A stretch of DNA of 56,471 bases from Gammaproteobacteria bacterium (GTDB lineage Bacteria > Pseudomonadota > Gammaproteobacteria > RBG-16-57-12), in assembly GCA_021647245.1 (NCBI GenBank), contig JAKIVC010000020.1, forward strand, positions 1-56,471, written 5' to 3'. Every line of letters starts with the position of its first letter. Positions within the stretch are counted from its first letter, which is position 1. The notes under the pieces are model-generated. The model worked only from the letters and a program-made list of their open reading frames with translations, was not told the DNA's origin and ran no database searches. The position numbers and the translations under genes are program-made. Of the stretch, positions 1,563 through 56,471 are shown one piece after another.

Positions 1563-4028
1563 TTATTTTCTGCGCCAAGGGGCATGCAGTGATTGTTGTA
1601 GGCGAATCAGAAAGCCGCGATGACGCTGAGTCTCTTGTGACATGTGGCGGTAGACCTGTACCTTGACCCAGTCGGTGAGCAGGGCCGAGGCGATGGAATA
1701 GCCCCAGATGAGGGCAATCTCTGGCCAGGTGATGGGGGTGATGAGTCCGAAGCCGTAGGCGGCCAGCAGGGTGGCGGCTAGCTTGGTGATGAGTGCTGAC
1801 CAAATCATAATGGGTGCTGGCCAAGGGTGTTGCCAGAAGTGTCCTTTACTGCGCGCAACGAACAGCACCAGATGTCCGGCCACGGCCATCTTCAGAAATA
1901 CATACGTCTGGATCTGTGTCACATCCAAAAGCATCCAGTCCATGGCAATCAGCAGCATGCCAAAACTACCAATGACACCGACGATGCCCATAGCAGTGGC
2001 CACGGTAATCACCTGGCGCATATTCCAACGCACGGGGTCTTTTTCCAAATTGGTGTGGTCGTAGGCGATGGTCATGATGGGTAGATCGTTAAAAAAGGCC
2101 AGTAGGATGATCATCACTGCAGTGATGGGGTAGAAGCCGAAAAAGACCATGGCCAGCACGACGAAGAACATAATGCGGATGGTTTCGCTGATGCGGTAGA
2201 TGGCGTAGGCATTCATGCGTTCAAAGATACGCCGAGCCTCCTCGATGGCGTTGACGATTACCGATAGTCCGGGTGCGGTGAGCACTAGGTCGGCCGCTGC
2301 GCGTGCGGCATCGGTGGCACCACTGACGGCGATCCCGACATCGGCTTGCTTGAGTGCGGGGGCATCGTTGACACCGTCGCCGGTCATGCCGGTGATGTGA
2401 TCGTGTTTTTGCAGAATCTTGACGATGGCGAATTTGTGCTCAGGGAACACCTCGGCAAAACCATCGGCTTTTTCGACGGCCTCGACACTGGTTTTTTGAT
2501 CGTGGTGATCATTGGCGACAGGCAGTGCATCAGCGCACAGGATATTGCTGCCCAATCCAAGTTTAGCGGCGACCTGCTTGGCAATGGCAAGATTGTCGCC
2601 GGTGACCATCTTCATGCTAATGCCGTAGGCGCGGATGCTGGCGATGGTTTCGGTGGAGTCCGTACGAGGGGGGTCGAAAAGTGAGAGGATGCCGAGAAAG
2701 GTCCAGCCTGCGGCACCGCCGTCTCGGCGTGCCACACCGAGGGCGCGGTAGCCCTGTTCAGCAAAGTCAGCGACGACCTGTTGGGCACGAACCTGCATCT
2801 CATCCGATAGCCCGGCCATCGCCATGATGACCTGCGGTGCACCCTTGACCACCTGAAAGGTGCTGCCATCAGCACTCTGGATTGTCGCCTCAGTACGTTT
2901 GTGTACTGGGTCAAAAGGCACGAAGGCCGTCTGGCGAAAGGCTGCGAGGCGTTCCTTGTTCACCAGGCCTTCCAATACGGCCTCATCGATAGCATCCTGA
3001 TTCTCTTCACGAGAGGCCAGTGCTGCAGCCAGCAGCACCTCTTGTCCATTCTCGGCGTGAAAGATCTCGACCTCACCCAGGGTGAGGCGATTTTGCGTCA
3101 AGGTGCCGGTCTTGTCTGAGCACAGTACATCCATGCTGGCCATCTCCTCGATGGACTCTAGGCGGGTGACGATGGCCTTGCGTTTCGATAGCGCCATGGC
3201 ACCCATGGCCATGGTCATAGAGAGTACTGCCGGCATGGCGACAGGAATTGAGGCGACGGTAAGGATCAGCGCAAATTGAACCAGCTCCAGCCAGTCTGTG
3301 CCACGGTGAAGTTCAACGATAATCAGCAGTGCCACCAGCGCCAGACTGAGGTAGATCAGATAGTCGCCAATGGTGAGTACAGCTTTTTGGAAATGGGAGG
3401 TGGTCGTGGCCTGTTGCACCAGACTGGCCGTCTTGCCGAAGCGGGTGTCGGCTCCGGTGGCTGTCACTTCGGCCAGCACCTCACCCTGTTTGACCGCAGT
3501 GCCGGAGAAGGCTTCGTCACCGGTACGCTTGGTGACCGGTAGGGACTCGCCGGTGAGCGCCGACTGGTCGATGCTGAGGTAATCACCGTCCACCAGCTTG
3601 ACATCAGCAGGAACGACATCACCTAGGCGGATGCGCACGATATCGCCTGGTACCAGTTGCTTGGCATCGATCTCCTGCCACTGACTGTCGCGCAGCACCC
3701 GAGCCTTGAGGGCCAGCTGCTTCATCAACGCTGCTATCGCATTGCCTGCGGTGTACTCCTGCCAGAAGCCAACCGCAGCATTGAAAATGAGCAGGGTGAT
3801 GATGATCCAGAAATCAGCCCAGTGCTGAACCAGTGCAGAGAGCACGGCTGCCACCTCGATCATCCATGGGATGGGGCCCCAGAAATAACCCAGCAGGCGC
3901 CGTAGGGTGGAGACTTTCTTCTCTTCCAGGGCATTGGGCCCATACTGCGTGAGGCGTTGGGCCGCCTCGCCACTACTAAGGCCCTGCACGGGGGGTGTTC
4001 TATCAGCGGCTTGCGTGGGTTCTGTCAT
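1563..4028 (-). CDS. P3A-type plasma-membrane H+-exporting ATPase
   Basis: This 821-residue protein has the complete P-type ATPase signature: the TGES actuator loop at 159–162, the phosphorylation motif CSDKTGTLT at 303–311 (Asp305) and the hinge TGDGVNDAP at 549–557. Membrane segments lie near 50–90 and 220–285, with more after about 600. The short length, the absence of heavy-metal-binding domains and the N-terminal 'Gl(s/t)..EA..R...YG.N.L' pattern point to the proton-pumping P3A subfamily of archaea, bacteria, plants and fungi. The ion itself is inferred from family. The start at 4028 is supported by GGAGGAGATCAGTA before ATG. It follows the amino-acid permease by 36 bp on the same strand and is likely co-transcribed with it. 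Confidence 0.9.
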   Translation of the reverse strand: MTEPTQAADRTPPVQGLSSGEAAQRLTQYGPNALEEKKVSTLRRLLGYFWGPIPWMIEVAAVLSALVQHWADFWIIITLLIFNAAVGFWQEYTAGNAIAALMKQLALKARVLRDSQWQEIDAKQLVPGDIVRIRLGDVVPADVKLVDGDYLSIDQSALTGESLPVTKRTGDEAFSGTAVKQGEVLAEVTATGADTRFGKTASLVQQATTTSHFQKAVLTIGDYLIYLSLALVALLIIVELHRGTDWLELVQFALILTVASIPVAMPAVLSMTMAMGAMALSKRKAIVTRLESIEEMASMDVLCSDKTGTLTQNRLTLGEVEIFHAENGQEVLLAAALASREENQDAIDEAVLEGLVNKERLAAFRQTAFVPFDPVHKRTEATIQSADGSTFQVVKGAPQVIMAMAGLSDEMQVRAQQVVADFAEQGYRALGVARRDGGAAGWTFLGILSLFDPPRTDSTETIASIRAYGISMKMVTGDNLAIAKQVAAKLGLGSNILCADALPVANDHHDQKTSVEAVEKADGFAEVFPEHKFAIVKILQKHDHITGMTGDGVNDAPALKQADVGIAVSGATDAARAAADLVLTAPGLSVIVNAIEEARRIFERMNAYAIYRISETIRIMFFVVLAMVFFGFYPITAVMIILLAFFNDLPIMTIAYDHTNLEKDPVRWNMRQVITVATAMGIVGVIGSFGMLLIAMDWMLLDVTQIQTYVFLKMAVAGHLVLFVARSKGHFWQHPWPAPIMIWSALITKLAATLLAAYGFGLITPITWPEIALIWGYSIASALLTDWVKVQVYRHMSQETQRHRGFLIRLQQSLHAPWRRK

Positions 4029-50637: not shown

Positions 50638-50943
50638 ACTTTCTTAAAAATATCTATCCGGCCACTCTCTCGCCTAACGCTATAGCGCCTAACCAATGAG
50701 TAAGGTGTTAACCGCTTGCAAAATATTCAAGGTGTATCTCGTACCTCTTCTCACTCATTACCTGCTAAGCCACTGCTCTGTTTTATGAGGCCGTTGCAAG
50801 CCGCTTAAAGTCACCCCACCGTATAACAAGGCACGAAAACGCTACGTGTGATGTAGTGGTGACTCGGGGCGTTCAAGCTGTAGGAAAACCCCCAAACCAC
50901 CCCAAATAGCGTAAAATGGCATCAAAGCATAAGGATTGCGCCA
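50638..50943. other. 306-bp gap between rnpB and IS remnant
   Basis: No gene is seen. A CTCACTTTCTT stretch directly follows rnpB but is not a clear hairpin terminator. The right part, from about 50869, is the end of the DUF772-type insertion sequence whose copy is at 32195–32275. Between them there are short degenerate palindromes only. Confidence 0.5.
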
Positions 50944-51090
50944 ATGCCAAATTTCATCCCCCGCAACTATCGGCAAGCGATCATGGTCACCCTCAATTTT
51001 GAGGATCAATTACAGCCGGGCACCTTCGAATACGCGCTGCACTATTTCATAGAAAACAAACTCGACCTTTCGATAGGTTGTGCTACGTTA
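50869..51090 (+). pseudogene. DUF772-type (IS1182/IS5-like) transposase, N-terminal remnant
   Basis: From ATG 50944 the frame reads MPNFIPRNYRQAIMVTLNFE then LQPGTFEYALHYFIENKLDL, the usual N-terminus of a DUF772-containing transposase. The likeness fades after the LDLS segment, and the frame then runs on into the 3' end of the integrase gene and stops at 51180. The insertion sequence has therefore been cut off by the integron's left boundary or by a later deletion. The DNA from 50869 to 50943 is its end. Confidence 0.6.
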
Positions 51091-51116
51091 GTGCGAGCAC
51101 TTGCAGGATTTAGGTA

Positions 51117-52118
51117 TTATATGGGGTTATCCAGTGGGCTTATCACCCCACGCCCGCCACGGTTTAGCACATGGGTATAAATCTCCGTAGTGCTCACATC
51201 AGAATGTCCCAATAGCTCTTGAATAGTGCGAATATCATAGCCCGCCTCCAGTAAGCGAGTGGCAAAACTGTGGCGAAAAGTATGACAACCACATTTTTTT
51301 ACAATGTTACACTTTTTCACCGCTTGCTTAACTTTACGCTGAATGGTGTTATTTGCCATGTGGTGGCGACGAATGATGTTTGATCTAGGATCAAGCCCCA
51401 CCCTCTCTGCAGGAAATAGATATTGCCAGCCTAACTCAGTCTCAGCATTGGGATACTTTTTAGCAAGAGCATGGGGCAGGTAAACGCACCCATGGCCATT
51501 ATTTAAATCAAACCTATGCAGATTCATCACGTAGTTAATCTGTTTTTCAAGTATTTCTATTAATCCCTGAGGCAATAGCGTACGGCGATCTTTTTGTCCC
51601 TTACCATCGCGCACCACTATCATTGACATTGAAAAGTCGATATCTTGAACACGCAAGCGCAGTGCCTCACTAATACGTAATCCACTACCGTAGAGCAGTT
51701 GTACAACTGATTTATAGATACCCTCCATTTGATTAATTACCCCATTAGCCTCCTTGTGGCTAAAGACCACAGGGATACGACGACCTCGACTAGCACCCAC
51801 CATGCCAATATTGCCAAGCTCCTTGCCAATAAAACGCTTGTAAAGAAATACCAATGCATTTAACGCTGTCTTCTGAGTGTTGACTGCCACATTACGTGAT
51901 AGAACTAAATGGTCGAGAAAAGCCTTGACCTCAACAACGCCCATGGCCTCAGGGTGGCGCTTATTATGGAATAAAATAAAACGACGAACCCACTGAATGT
52001 AGGTTTGCTCAGTTTTATACGCCAAGCCTTCAGTGCGAATAAAGGCACGTAATTGATCAAGGAGTTTAGTAGGTTTATCTGGAATTTTTATCGGGATATC
52101 ATTCATATTAAAATCCAT
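51117..52118 (-). CDS. intI: integron integrase IntI
   Basis: Starting at 52118 gives 333 residues. The tyrosine-recombinase residues are Arg148 (GSGLRISE), Lys173, His279 and Arg282 (CHTFRHS), His305 (LLGHSDV) and Tyr314 (EIYTHV). The extra region unique to integron integrases is present at about 205–258 (HALAKKYPNAETELGWQYLF and HHMANNTIQRK). It recombines attC single-stranded hairpins into attI. The longer frame to 52166 runs back through the promoter and LexA box and is not used. The gene looks complete, so the integron may be active. Confidence 0.93.
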   Translation of the reverse strand: MDFNMNDIPIKIPDKPTKLLDQLRAFIRTEGLAYKTEQTYIQWVRRFILFHNKRHPEAMGVVEVKAFLDHLVLSRNVAVNTQKTALNALVFLYKRFIGKELGNIGMVGASRGRRIPVVFSHKEANGVINQMEGIYKSVVQLLYGSGLRISEALRLRVQDIDFSMSMIVVRDGKGQKDRRTLLPQGLIEILEKQINYVMNLHRFDLNNGHGCVYLPHALAKKYPNAETELGWQYLFPAERVGLDPRSNIIRRHHMANNTIQRKVKQAVKKCNIVKKCGCHTFRHSFATRLLEAGYDIRTIQELLGHSDVSTTEIYTHVLNRGGRGVISPLDNPI

Positions 52119-52166: not shown

Positions 52167-52452
52167 GGGATTTACCGGGCTATATCAGCGCACGTGTTGC
52201 ATATCCGGGTATATGCTTTTTGTAGTCCCCTGTAACGCATTGATATTGCTTTATATTTTCAAAGATGGAAGAGGTTATTAGAAAATAGATGGCTCAAAAA
52301 TAGTCTCACTGGCATAAAAAGTCAGAGTGATAATTTTTGGTTTCATTGCAATGCATTGAAAATAAACAACTAATAATCAATCGATTATTTCTTTGTACAA
52401 AATAGTTCTTTAAGAGATAGTATGGTGGTTAGACAGAATAAAACTGTTAGGT
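52141..52452. other. attI-containing region between intI and first cassette
   Basis: The recombination point is set by GTTAGGT at 52446–52452, because its next bases (GTTAGGTGCA) are the exact complement of the R'' core of attC1 (TGCACCTAAC). The 300 bp to its left, AT-rich, should carry the integrase binding sites of attI. A possible outward cassette promoter is TTGTAC (52393–52398), 17 bases, GATAGT (52416–52421); it is a weak match. Confidence 0.7.
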
Positions 52453-52922
52453 GCATCCAAAAAAATAGCAAAAAGTGGTGCGTGTATTTCCAGTTTCTTT
52501 TGGTGGCGCTAGCAAAGTTTAGCGTGAAATTGTTCCACTATCCAAATCGGCCAGTTCTTTGATCGTGGCTTCTGACTATGGGTCTCCCTCGTTCGGTCTT
52601 TTGCGTTTTTATTGCAGGCCCGGTGGTCTCTTCTGGGTGCTAATCGAAAGGGTAGGGGGCGGATCAAAGAGGTCGAGATTTGTGGCAGCGAACAACGGCG
52701 CAGAAGTTGGGCCGTGGCAGCGAACGACAGTGGTGAGTCTGTTGGGTGAAATGTCAGTGTAAGCGTCAAGGGTTGTGTTCTGTTGGGTGTTCGAAAGGCT
52801 GCACCTAACCAGGGCAATTAACACGGACAGTCCTCCGCGGCATTTAAATTGTGCGGTCATTCCGTTACACTCCATTTTCGCACAATTCAAACGCCGCTCC
52901 GGCCTTCCGGTTATTGCTGGCG
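52447..52922 (+). other. integron cassette 1 (476 bp), no supported gene
   Basis: The cassette spans TTAGGT to the G before the next core site. Frames of 60–100 codons exist in it (52559–52762 plus; 52609–52890 and 52509–52817 minus), but none has a ribosome binding site, and the minus ones read into the attC. I see no recognisable protein. Non-coding or promoter-carrying cassettes are known in sedentary integrons, and this one is a candidate. Confidence 0.55.
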
Positions 52923-52928
52923 TTATGT
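52803..52928 (+). repeat. attC1 recombination site
   Basis: R'' is ACCTAAC (52803–52809) and R' GTTATGT (52922–52928), with inner pairing CCGCGGCATTTAAATTGTGCG against CGCACAATTCAAACGCCGC. The 126-base site is unrelated in its interior to attC2 and attC3, so cassette 1 probably came from another array. Confidence 0.85.
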
Positions 52929-53324
52929 TTTTGTCAGCACTGAAGTAAGTTTTAAGTGTTTGACGAAGGGGATAAAGTCTCTATCTGAGAAAAGCAAGGG
53001 CAGTCGGTTGTCGATACAAAAAGTGGCAATAATAATGTCTGTTGTTTTCCTGATAGTGATTCCCTTTTTTCGTAAATTACGATAGTTATTCGCGCACTTT
53101 GAAACCATATTATGGCCAAACAGCTCGTATTGATCCAAGGTGGCAAGCCTTTTCTTGGCCTGGTTATAATCTTTGTCGTGTCTAAATCCTTGAAGAATTT
53201 CTAATAGTATTATGTCACCTATGGCAACAGAGTCATCTTCAAGGGCAGTATCAAGTGTGTTAGTTTCAGTGTTATCTAAGCCGTTGAAATAGTCAATCCA
53301 AACGCTGGTATCAACTAAAATCAC
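52923..53324 (-). CDS. vapC: VapC-type PIN-domain ribonuclease toxin
   Basis: The 133-residue protein has the PIN active-site acids Asp5 (MILVDTSVWID), Glu42 (LLEILQG), Asp96 and Asp114/116 (LFSDRDF). VapC toxins cleave tRNA or rRNA and are blocked by VapB. Its start overlaps the vapB stop by four bases. The stop codon (TTA on the plus strand, 52923–52925) is made by the first three bases of the cassette itself, so the gene fills the cassette to its edge. Confidence 0.92.
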   Translation of the reverse strand: MILVDTSVWIDYFNGLDNTETNTLDTALEDDSVAIGDIILLEILQGFRHDKDYNQAKKRLATLDQYELFGHNMVSKCANNYRNLRKKGITIRKTTDIIIATFCIDNRLPLLFSDRDFIPFVKHLKLTSVLTKT

Positions 53325-53515
53325 TTTCCGCCCCTCATCTCGTCAAGGTCGCCTTCCCACTTAAGCTTGCCCCTCAACTTTCGTATTGCTTGCTGCTGGT
53401 TTTTCTTAACAAGTAGTTTAAGCCCAAGTTCTACAGCTTCCTTTTTTGTCCGTAGTCCGGTAGCCTTTAACGCATCGTTCATTAATTTGTCGTCAATTAC
53501 TATGTTCGTTCTCAT
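53321..53515 (-). CDS. vapB: VapB-type antitoxin
   Basis: The 64-residue protein has a ribbon-helix-helix N-terminus (MRTNIVIDDKLMNDALKATG) and the C-terminal toxin-binding tail WEGDLDEMRGGK of the VapB family. It neutralises VapC and, with it, represses the operon. RBS AAGGTGA is clear. Such pairs stabilise cassette arrays. Confidence 0.92.
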   Translation of the reverse strand: MRTNIVIDDKLMNDALKATGLRTKKEAVELGLKLLVKKNQQQAIRKLRGKLKWEGDLDEMRGGK

Positions 53516-53525
53516 AAATCACCTT

Positions 53526-53580
53526 ATGTGTATATTTAATGTCAATATACACATTATAGTGAAATATAAAAACATAACAA
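53526..53580 (-). promoter_or_regulatory. vapBC promoter and operator inside cassette 2
   Basis: ATGTGTATATT (53526–53536) and AATATACACAT (53544–53554) are perfect 11-base inverted repeats around seven bases, placed between the −10 and the vapB start. On the minus strand TATAAT (53558–53553) is the −10 and TTGTTA (53580–53575) the −35, 16 bases apart. The −35 overlaps the R'' core of attC2, so the toxin–antitoxin genes have their own promoter within the cassette. Confidence 0.75.
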
Positions 53581-53691
53581 GGCCCATCAACTCGGACAAT
53601 TTACCGCGTGGTTTGGTTTGCGTATTCGCTACGCTCAATTTTACGCAAACCAAACCACGCGGTAAATTGCCGGTTATGGGCGACGTTATGT
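53572..53691 (+). repeat. attC2 recombination site
   Basis: A 120-base imperfect palindrome from ACATAAC (R'', 53572–53578) to GTTATGT (R', 53685–53691), with the long stem GCGTGGTTTGGTTTGCGTA pairing with TACGCAAACCAAACCACGC. Nearly the same as attC3. Confidence 0.95.
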
Positions 53692-53721: not shown

Positions 53722-55128
53722 GTGCCTGTAGAAGAAGAGAAAAAAGACATTGAATATTCTGATGGACTTGATAAGTTCATTCACTTTGCTTTCGATGATC
53801 TAGTCGATGTTGCCAGCAGTAATTATCAGTTATTTGAAGAACTTTATTACAATAGGAAAAGCCAATGCGATGAGTTTTATGCGTTGATGGAGGATAGTCA
53901 TGTTACTTCACCAAACGTATTAATAGTGGGGGGGGCCGGGGTCGGAAAGACAAGTTTTGTACATAAACTTATAATAAGTACAAAAAAAGACCGTCACTAT
54001 TGCTTGATGCTTGATTATAGAAAGGTTGTCCCAAGGACGAAGGATGGACTGATTAGCTATTTCATTAAAGAAATGGAAAAGTATTTCGATGAAGTTGGTC
54101 ATCCAATTAATACTCTCTCAGATACAAATAAGCTGGATTCAAATTTTCAATGTGTGTATAGCCACCTCGATCTTCTAGATAAAAATGATGTTAGTAAGCA
54201 TTTGATACTTTTTTTGGATGATTTCGATTATGCAGAGGAAGAGTGGTTTGAGCTTCTCAGTTACTTTATCCCTTTTTCTAACAACGAAAAAACAAGCCTT
54301 GTTCTGTCTGTAAGGGAACCGCTGCTAAATTCTATCGATGAATATGATGATCGATTTAGAAGTTCATATATAAAGAAGGCTAGGCAAATAACGTTATCGC
54401 CTATCTCTGTCGAAAATGTAATATCAACGCGGCTTGCTCCTATTTTGATAGAAAAGGAGAATACAAATAAGTTATATGGAATACTGTCAGGGCTATTCAA
54501 TAGAAAAAGTCCCTTGTGTGTTTTGGCAAGGACGCACGGGACGATAGTGGATGACTTGCCTCGGTTTGAGTACCCTTTGACAAAAAAACACAACACCTTT
54601 ATGCAGCGTATCACTAGTGGGGATATCAGGGAAACTTTTGCGATTGCGTATGAAAGTTTGAAATTTATATTTGAGCATGATGAGTACGTTCAAGTATTGA
54701 GTGAAGATGGGCTTGAGAAAAAACGAGTAGGCCGTGAAGGTGTAATGAAAATGCTGTATGACAACAGCGACGCAAGCTACAAAATAGAAAACATACATAA
54801 ATTGCGGTCAAAATCAGGAAACTCTCTGTTTTTTAATGTGTTAGAGGCCGTTAAGATGCTAGGCGTAGTAGATGAGAGATTTTATAGATCACTGACAGAA
54901 CTCGGGCATTCAAAAAAACGTATTGATGATGCAATTGAGTCGCTATCATCAAAGCGGTATAAGTTTTTCGTTCCTTCCAAAATTGTTCCGAAAAAAGTAA
55001 AGAAGAATATTGAATACAATAGAGAGTATATTCCTCTTCCTAAGTTAGAAATGTATTTAGAAATGTGCACTGATTGGCAAGAATACATATCTCGTTGTGG
55101 GCACTATGGTAAATCAATTGAGGTCTAG
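53722..55128 (+). CDS. P-loop ATPase of cassette 3 (STAND/AAA-like), unknown
   Basis: The 468-residue protein starts at GTG 53722 behind AAGGGGAG. Walker A is GGAGVGKTS (70–78), Walker B LILFLDDFD (161–169) and a sensor-like SLVLSVREP follows (192–200). The order, with a helical C-terminal half and a winged-helix-like part (about 360–425, NIHKLRSKSGNSLFFNVLEA), is that of STAND or KAP-like ATPases, which are often switches in defence and signalling. There is no extra nuclease, TIR or protease domain. DNA is AT-rich against the host genes. It is the first of three co-oriented genes that fill cassette 3. Confidence 0.75.
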   Translation: MPVEEEKKDIEYSDGLDKFIHFAFDDLVDVASSNYQLFEELYYNRKSQCDEFYALMEDSHVTSPNVLIVGGAGVGKTSFVHKLIISTKKDRHYCLMLDYRKVVPRTKDGLISYFIKEMEKYFDEVGHPINTLSDTNKLDSNFQCVYSHLDLLDKNDVSKHLILFLDDFDYAEEEWFELLSYFIPFSNNEKTSLVLSVREPLLNSIDEYDDRFRSSYIKKARQITLSPISVENVISTRLAPILIEKENTNKLYGILSGLFNRKSPLCVLARTHGTIVDDLPRFEYPLTKKHNTFMQRITSGDIRETFAIAYESLKFIFEHDEYVQVLSEDGLEKKRVGREGVMKMLYDNSDASYKIENIHKLRSKSGNSLFFNVLEAVKMLGVVDERFYRSLTELGHSKKRIDDAIESLSSKRYKFFVPSKIVPKKVKKNIEYNREYIPLPKLEMYLEMCTDWQEYISRCGHYGKSIEV

Positions 55129-55132
55129 TTTA

Positions 55133-55453
55133 ATGAAGTCAAACGTTCTTTTGGATGTTGCAGAGTTGGCCCTATCTCACCTTGGTGATAAATCTAACGT
55201 AACATACGTGAATATCAACGACCTATATGATGAATATATATCCGGTGGGGCATTATGTAGAATTCCTGTATCCAAAGAATATTTTAGGTCGGCTCTGAAA
55301 ACTATGTTCCCAATATATAAAAATGTGAGGAAGCACACAAACGATTTTAAAATATCGATCAAATCTGCATATTTTGTATGTGATGAATTGTCTCTAACCC
55401 TTAGGCCTATTGAGCATATAATGCAGAGAAAAGTAGAGTTATGTTTGGCTTGA
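55133..55453 (+). CDS. small cassette-3 protein, unknown
   Basis: I start at ATG 55133, five bases after the ATPase stop and behind TTGAGG, giving 106 residues; a longer frame from 55097 overlaps the ATPase end. The product has an LLDVAELALSHLGDKSNV helix, then DLYDEYISGGALCRIPVSKE and a basic segment (FPIYKNVRKHTNDFKISIKS), suggestive of a small winged-helix or replication-type fold, but no family is certain. It overlaps the next gene by 13 bases, so the three are read together. Confidence 0.6.
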   Translation: MKSNVLLDVAELALSHLGDKSNVTYVNINDLYDEYISGGALCRIPVSKEYFRSALKTMFPIYKNVRKHTNDFKISIKSAYFVCDELSLTLRPIEHIMQRKVELCLA

Positions 55454-55701
55454 AAAAATTGTTTAGTAAAAAATGTAATACATGTTTCTTTAAGCAGGAA
55501 GGTAATTGTATTCTATATCGTGTAATGCACCATCCTTGCGGGATGAAAACAAATAAAATAAAAGGAATTACCGATGCTGGTTTTTATGTGAATCTAGTTA
55601 ATAATAGCAAGTTAAGTATAAGAGCCCTGTATTTTTCAATAGCATCATTGATGGTAGCTGTTGCAGCACTTTTGGTAAATATAGTGAGGCTTATATCTTA
55701 G
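55441..55701 (+). CDS. four-cysteine membrane-anchored protein of cassette 3
   Basis: The 86-residue protein has Cys at 12, 15, 23 and 33 (KCNTCFFKQEGNC then HHPCGMK), a likely zinc or iron–sulfur site, and one C-terminal membrane helix (about 63–83, LYFSIASLMVAVAALLVNIV). The N-terminus is cytoplasmic and basic. It overlaps the previous gene by 13 bases, which implies coupled translation. A tail-anchored small effector paired with an ATPase is a common plan in abortive-infection systems; function here is unknown. Confidence 0.6.
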   Translation: MFGLKKLFSKKCNTCFFKQEGNCILYRVMHHPCGMKTNKIKGITDAGFYVNLVNNSKLSIRALYFSIASLMVAVAALLVNIVRLIS

Positions 55702-55716
55702 TCAAGAAAATACGCA

Positions 55717-55836
55717 ACATAACAAGGCCCATAAACTCGGACAATTTGCAGCTGTGTTTGGTTTGCGTATTCGCTGCGCTCAATTTTACGCAAACCAAAC
55801 ACCGCTGCAAATTGCCGGTTATGGGCGACGTTAGCG
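55717..55836 (+). repeat. attC3 recombination site
   Basis: R'' ACATAAC (55717–55723) and R' GTTAGCG (55830–55836), with the same interior as attC2 (GTTTGGTTTGCGTATTCGCT). Only the loop-near arms differ (GCAGCTGTG against CCGCGTGG), with compensating changes on both sides that keep the stem. Confidence 0.93.
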
Positions 55837-56345
55837 TCAAAAAAAAATAAACACCAAACCATCCGAAAGTATTGGTATTGTACATAAAGATCTTATAGTG
55901 GAGCAGAGGTGCTGGAAAACTTAAATCTTAAAGACTCCGTTGTCTCTGGAAATTCATTGCGACTAAGCGAATTTAATTTAGGCATATTACGCCTATCGAA
56001 TACATTGGTGTTTTGAAAGATTTAAAACCCGTACAAAACAAAAAAATCCCAAACAGCATTGTTGCGTAAAATTAATAGTCAATAAAGAGTGCAGGGTTTA
56101 GATTGTCCCCCTTCCAAATATCGCATACCCTGAGAGCATTTAACGTGCACACGACAAAAAACTAAAAAATCCAATTCCACGTAATGGCAACAGTCAATAA
56201 TGAATATTTTATCCAGGCTTTACCACTACCGAATATCGCGCTATTCTGATGGTTATTGAAATGAAAAAGAAAACAAAAAGAGAAAATACAAACATATCCA
56301 GGGTGAGTGCTAATAGCGATGGGTGCGAATGCTGGAAAAACGCTA
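55831..56345 (+). other. integron cassette 4 (partial), no convincing gene
   Basis: The cassette starts with TTAGCG. A short frame at 55909–56016 (GTG start, GGAGCAGAG before it, 35 codons, VLENLNLKDSVVSG) lies behind a promoter-like TTGGTA-16-TATAGT (55872–55899), and another of 36 codons starts at 56261. Neither is recognisable. ACGCTA at 56340–56345 is the left part of this cassette's own R'' core, cut short by the intron-like sequence. Confidence 0.5.
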
Positions 56346-56471
56346 ATCGGGTAGCCAAGGGTCTCTAACCCTCAGCCCCCACAACACCCTGCATGCGGCT
56401 CCGCACAGGGCGTTTCACTTAGCATAGTGAAGCTTGATCCATCCATCACGTAGTGCCACTAGCCCCTGAGA
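56346..56471 (-). mobile_element. 3' end of a group IIC-attC-type intron (partial)
   Basis: On the minus strand this segment ends CTACCCGAT at 56346, the usual 3' end of bacterial group II introns. CGCCCTGTGCGG, a short loop and CCGCATGCAGGG form a domain V-like hairpin at about 56382–56412, with CGC in the catalytic-triad place as in class C. A domain VI-like hairpin (GGGTTAGAGACCC) follows. The 5' part and reverse transcriptase would lie beyond the window. It interrupts the attC R'' core of cassette 4. Confidence 0.6.

Follow-up and report, generated by a model that had tools for sequence, protein, structure and literature searches.

Class C-attC introns, which belong to the bacterial class C of group II introns, run against the cassettes of integrons. 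Their published target is TTGT/T, and one group IIC-attC intron known from a cassette array, UHB.F1, is truncated at its 5′ end (PMC7923331). An outward promoter for downstream cassettes is reported for S.ma.I2, according to work summarised in a review (PMC8876359), and introns of this type have been proposed to help make cassettes (Leon and Roy, 2009, as cited in PMC7923331). The DNA analysed here, hereafter the window, is a stretch of 56,471 nucleotides that makes up the entire contig C20 of a gammaproteobacterial genome of 2.57 Mb in 64 contigs. Its rightmost part represents, with high confidence, the 3′ terminus of a group II intron of class C-attC, inserted by retrohoming into the attC of the fourth cassette of a chromosomal integron (Table 1). 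The kind of feature is already known, and the initial annotation, which had called a group IIC-attC-like intron from the letters of this DNA, read it correctly.

The integron and its interrupted attC

Upstream of the intron, an integrase gene, neighbouring cassettes and three attC hairpins characterise the locus as a chromosomal integron, in which attI was recognised solely by the GTTAGGT junction and its place beside intI. The attC of cassette 3 is 91% identical to that of cassette 2. A search of the genome for the rest of the array by attC similarity returned only two similar attCs, both within the window. Cassette 2 carries a VapC/VapB toxin-antitoxin pair (52923-53515) on the minus strand, against the cassette direction. 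Cassette 3 (53722-55701) encodes a 468-aa P-loop ATPase with an AAA_16 match slightly below the Pfam cut-off, next to two small proteins with no Pfam match; a PADLOC search gave no match in cassette 3. Within the bounds of cassette 4 there is no plus strand ORF of at least 50 aa.

Table 1. Features of the integron and of the intron 3′ end in the window (strand given relative to the contig)
Feature	Coordinates	Strand	Evidence
Integron integrase gene intI	51117..52112	-	NCBIfam TIGR02249, 433.6 bits, cut-off 265
attI/cassette 1 junction, GTTAGGT	52446..52452	+	sequence
attC of cassette 1 (ACCTAAC ... GTTATGT)	52803..52928	+	bottom strand fold z -5.1
attC of cassette 2 (ACATAAC ... GTTATGT)	53572..53691	+	bottom strand fold z -10.0
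attC of cassette 3 (ACATAAC ... GTTAGCG)	55717..55836	+	bottom strand fold -45.5 kcal/mol, z -9.7
Cassette 4	55831..56345	+	opens GTTAGCG at 55830-55836, including the preceding G
CGCTA, remaining part of R″ (CGCTAAC) of the cassette 4 attC	56341..56345	+	sequence; agrees with cassette start GTTAGCG
Class C-attC type group II intron, 3′ end (126 nt)	56346..56471	-	RF00029, identity to other copies
Domain VI hairpin	56349..56380	-	fold; seven pairs with compensatory change
Domain V hairpin with CGC triad	56383..56414	-	fold; pairing in homologues

Because cassette 4 begins with GTTAGCG, the R″ of its own attC is expected to read CGCTAAC, as had been pointed out in the initial annotation and as the sequence confirms. 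The match breaks after CGCTA, and the reverse complement of the intron end joins directly, again as claimed at the outset: the plus strand continues with ATCGGGTAG, and on the minus strand the intron closes with CTACCCGAT. The motif CTACCCGATT occurs once in the window, against 0.07 occurrences expected. The intron thus sits in R″, on the bottom strand of the attC and opposite to the cassettes, and the boundary together with the agreement of R″ bears out the proposed bottom-strand entry with a join between GT and TAGCG. The 3′ exon of this copy starts with T, as in the TTGT/T target (IBS1/IBS3), while the contig ends before its 5′ exon. With R″ split between GT and TAGCG, the attC of cassette 4 is therefore interrupted.

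The likely course of the insertion would begin with EBS1 of the intron RNA (ACAA, conserved in reference introns) pairing with TTGT of the attC bottom strand. The intron would then splice in before the T of TAGCG, and its reverse transcriptase would subsequently copy the inserted intron. The normal attC of cassette 4 would be lost in this process. By analogy with S.ma.I2, the intron may block transcription from Pc, and it may likewise supply an outward promoter of its own to downstream cassettes.

Identity and structure of the intron 3′ end

The search with group II models that the initial annotation had proposed yields a match of the minus strand at 56346-56415 to Rfam RF00029 with 49 bits (E 1.2e-06; gathering score 40). 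The 85 nt at the intron 3′ end fold at -44.4 kcal/mol compared to a shuffle mean of -28.0 (z -5.2), forming a domain V and a domain VI. Domain V displays C-G-C at the triad position near the helix base, which is the triad of class C; the claim of such a triad is upheld by the fold and by 46 homologues, among which it is almost invariant. In domain VI the A at 56352 is unpaired; it lies seven bases from the intron 3′ end and is likely the branch point, judging from its position.

Over the 46 distinct homologues, standard pairs occupy 97.6% of the cells in domains V and VI (99.5% in domain V), as compared to 91.9% in shuffled controls and 43-49% with the register slid. Changes on both sides of a pair amount to 72 cells versus 22 after shuffling, mostly in domain VI; as some of the homologues are closely related, the shuffle control overstates the evidence, which the slid control does not. 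Model match, fold and covariation agree on the presence of domains V and VI at the intron terminus, as befits a class C-attC intron.

Copies and remnants in the same genome

Five other contigs of this genome (C32, C17, C2, C37, C56) end after the same 124-130 bp of intron 3′ end at 99-100% identity, which argues against a chance sequence, and C9 contains the same 3′ end at 91% identity. The intron has multiplied in this genome recently enough to leave near-identical 3′ ends, and contig C20 ends at 56471 because the intron is a multi-copy repeat. Pfam and protein searches of the assembly found no reverse transcriptase matching this intron, but fragments or other introns only. A body of about 1.9 kb shared by all copies would be shorter than the shortest contig analysed (2,320 bases), which would explain this absence. 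We infer that the window's copy is full length, with its reverse transcriptase intact and the attC remainder beyond it.

An alternative reading, which we consider rather unlikely but of some weight, is that the window's intron is a dead, 5′-truncated tail, and that the rest of the attC was possibly lost as well. Truncated tails are common here (two in C5, one each in C29, C33 and C43), the end of C50 is apparently the 5′ side of a copy starting at intron nt 1372, and a related genome (G001) has a truncated tail of about 218 nt. Moreover, the contig ends of the assembly hold seven intron 3′ ends but only two 5′ ends, which are identical (C26, C36). However, the missing 5′ sides may also lie on contigs too short to be among those analysed (below 2.3 kb), the assembly of a short tail would have continued into its flanking DNA, and the break after 126 nt is exactly like that of the five other near-identical copies, so that at least 126 nt are shared. 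The 5′ ends in C26 and C36 were considered as partners of the window's tail and rejected, as their exons are unlike the attCs of the array and their folds do not surpass those of shuffled sequences (z about -0.1).

An ORF-less intron remnant of about 0.4 kb in C1 (L058, about 3220-3640, minus strand) keeps parts of domain I and domain V and adjoins an attC hairpin. The tails in C37, C17 and at the end of C32 have ordinary chromosomal genes for neighbours, and a search within 4 kb of them revealed no matching R′. Together with the solitary cassettes and the truncation in C43 described below, such tails away from any recognisable attC suit the published view that these introns can also enter non-attC targets, and are no proof of a role in cassette formation. 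What is notable is how many copies and remnants this one small genome carries, unlike the element itself, which is of an ordinary kind.

Two solitary cassettes were observed in C5 (L056: 5037-5530 and 16414-17137), with a 155-aa protein and a likely HigB/HigA pair. In each, R′ and R″ match: one opens with GTTAGGTG and closes with CACCTA, the other opens with GTTAGGCA and closes with TGCCTA, and in both a truncated intron tail follows directly in place of the attC. Both are preceded by the right end of an IS1182-like element.

This element is represented by L159:3816-5525, with a transposase containing DUF772 and DDE_Tnp_1_6 and the terminal repeat GAGGCTGTAGAAAAACC. In the window's own genome it is represented in C2, C4, C5 (two), C16, C33, C43 and C44, and single ends were found in further loci (L125, L147, L173, L248, L256). 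The 21-mer of its right end is present in 17 of 369 genomes, compared to none for the reversed control. Its insertion site seems to be the crossover GTT of attC, with duplication of GTT, since GTT flanks both ends, joined to attC ends (..GGCGTT-IS-GTTRRR..), although the count of such flanks is partly biased by a search pattern that contained GTTA. In the window, just right of the intI end, the plus strand at 50873-51180 reads GGGGCGTT and then CAAGCTGTAGGAAAACC, followed by an ORF resembling a transposase start, and is probably a remnant of the same element. Recombination by the integrase was considered as the cause of the truncated intron in C43 and rejected: the sequence joined to it is the end of the IS1182-like element, which sits at GGCGTT inside the intron and accounts for the truncation.

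Based on these observations we put forward a more speculative proposal, which we hold to be doubtful at present: in this genus the C-attC intron may have reached a high copy number, may have colonised sites where no attC is obvious and, jointly with the GTT-inserting IS1182-like element, may break integron arrays into single chromosomal cassettes in which GTT and the gene are followed by an intron tail instead of an attC. If true, the genus would offer a natural setting for testing the role in cassette formation that has been proposed for these introns.

Homologues and comparison with known systems

The intron matches 357 plasmid records, mostly of Klebsiella, Citrobacter, Escherichia and Enterobacter, of which those with the best coverage show about 87% identity and are located in the attC of integron cassettes such as aadA, fosE and catB; many of these relatives carry an annotated group II reverse transcriptase. 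The plasmid reference intron (NZ_CP072517.1, L040:2201-4126) comprises 1,926 nt, runs from GTACGCC to CTACCCGAT and has additional hits to two Rfam group-II-D1D4 families; the 126 nt of the window are 86.5% identical to its nt 1801-1926. Of 369 genomes sampled across the class, 31 have a match, a figure that denotes prevalence and not copy number, since at most two candidates were scored per genome.

The genome collection was scanned for a 25-base domain V motif. Among the matches listed, at least 77 tails could be delimited, at least 17 of them with a 5′ end; at least 10 of these 17 measure 1.92-1.96 kb, at least 9 of which contain an ORF of 446-460 aa. Relatives of this length with a reverse transcriptase lie in attC sites of many gammaproteobacteria. 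Of 35 heads, 32 have TTGT as their 5′ exon, and T is the first base of the 3′ exon in all 77 tails (again among the matches listed), which equals the published target and supports the C-attC assignment. Most of the longer copies have an ACAAG in domain I as a candidate EBS1. In three Shewanella loci (L127, L138, L161), domain V is split after CGCCCT by a short insertion that is similar in all three. The initial annotation had expected a reverse transcriptase, an intron 5′ end of the GTGCG type and the attC remainder to the right; all three parts are found in relatives and plasmids, where the 5′ end after TTGT reads GTACGCC instead of GTGCG.

It is most improbable that the hairpins belong to a group II intron of another class or to an unrelated structure placed beside the cassette by chance or misassembly: other group II introns with longer domain V-VI matches do occur in the genome (C42, C16, C7, C3), and integrons can also harbour introns of other classes (PMC7923331), but this reading is already contradicted by the CGC triad, the identity at the DNA level to integron introns that carry a group II reverse transcriptase, the recurrence of the exact TAG/GAT boundary in homologues, and the orientation and agreement of R″.

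The window adds a chromosomal, environmental example of introns that resistance integrons carry as well. With its many fresh, truncated and ORF-less copies, both at attC sites and elsewhere, a genome of this sort could serve to test whether such introns help to form cassettes or mostly break them.

Among known systems, the chromosomal attC introns of Shewanella, Marinobacter, Vibrio, Colwellia, Alteromonas and others have the same domain V-VI and TTGT/T target, with the attC remainder before their 5′ end. The chromosomal relatives listed as full length have a reverse transcriptase on the same contig, in contrast to the assembly of the window's genome. UHB.F1 resembles the window's intron as a group IIC-attC intron that runs against the cassettes in an array cut by a contig edge, whereas UHB.F1 is truncated and retains part of its reverse transcriptase, and the window's copy is known from its 126 nt alone. 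The C-attC introns of clinical class 1 integrons (S.ma.I2 type; NZ_CP072517.1, NZ_MF564291.1) are about 87% identical at the 3′ end and share with the window's intron the boundary CTACCCGAT/T, the target in R″ of the attC and the orientation against the cassettes. The window's intron, of which 126 nt are readable, differs from them by its chromosomal environmental integron, its unrelated cassettes and its many copies per genome.
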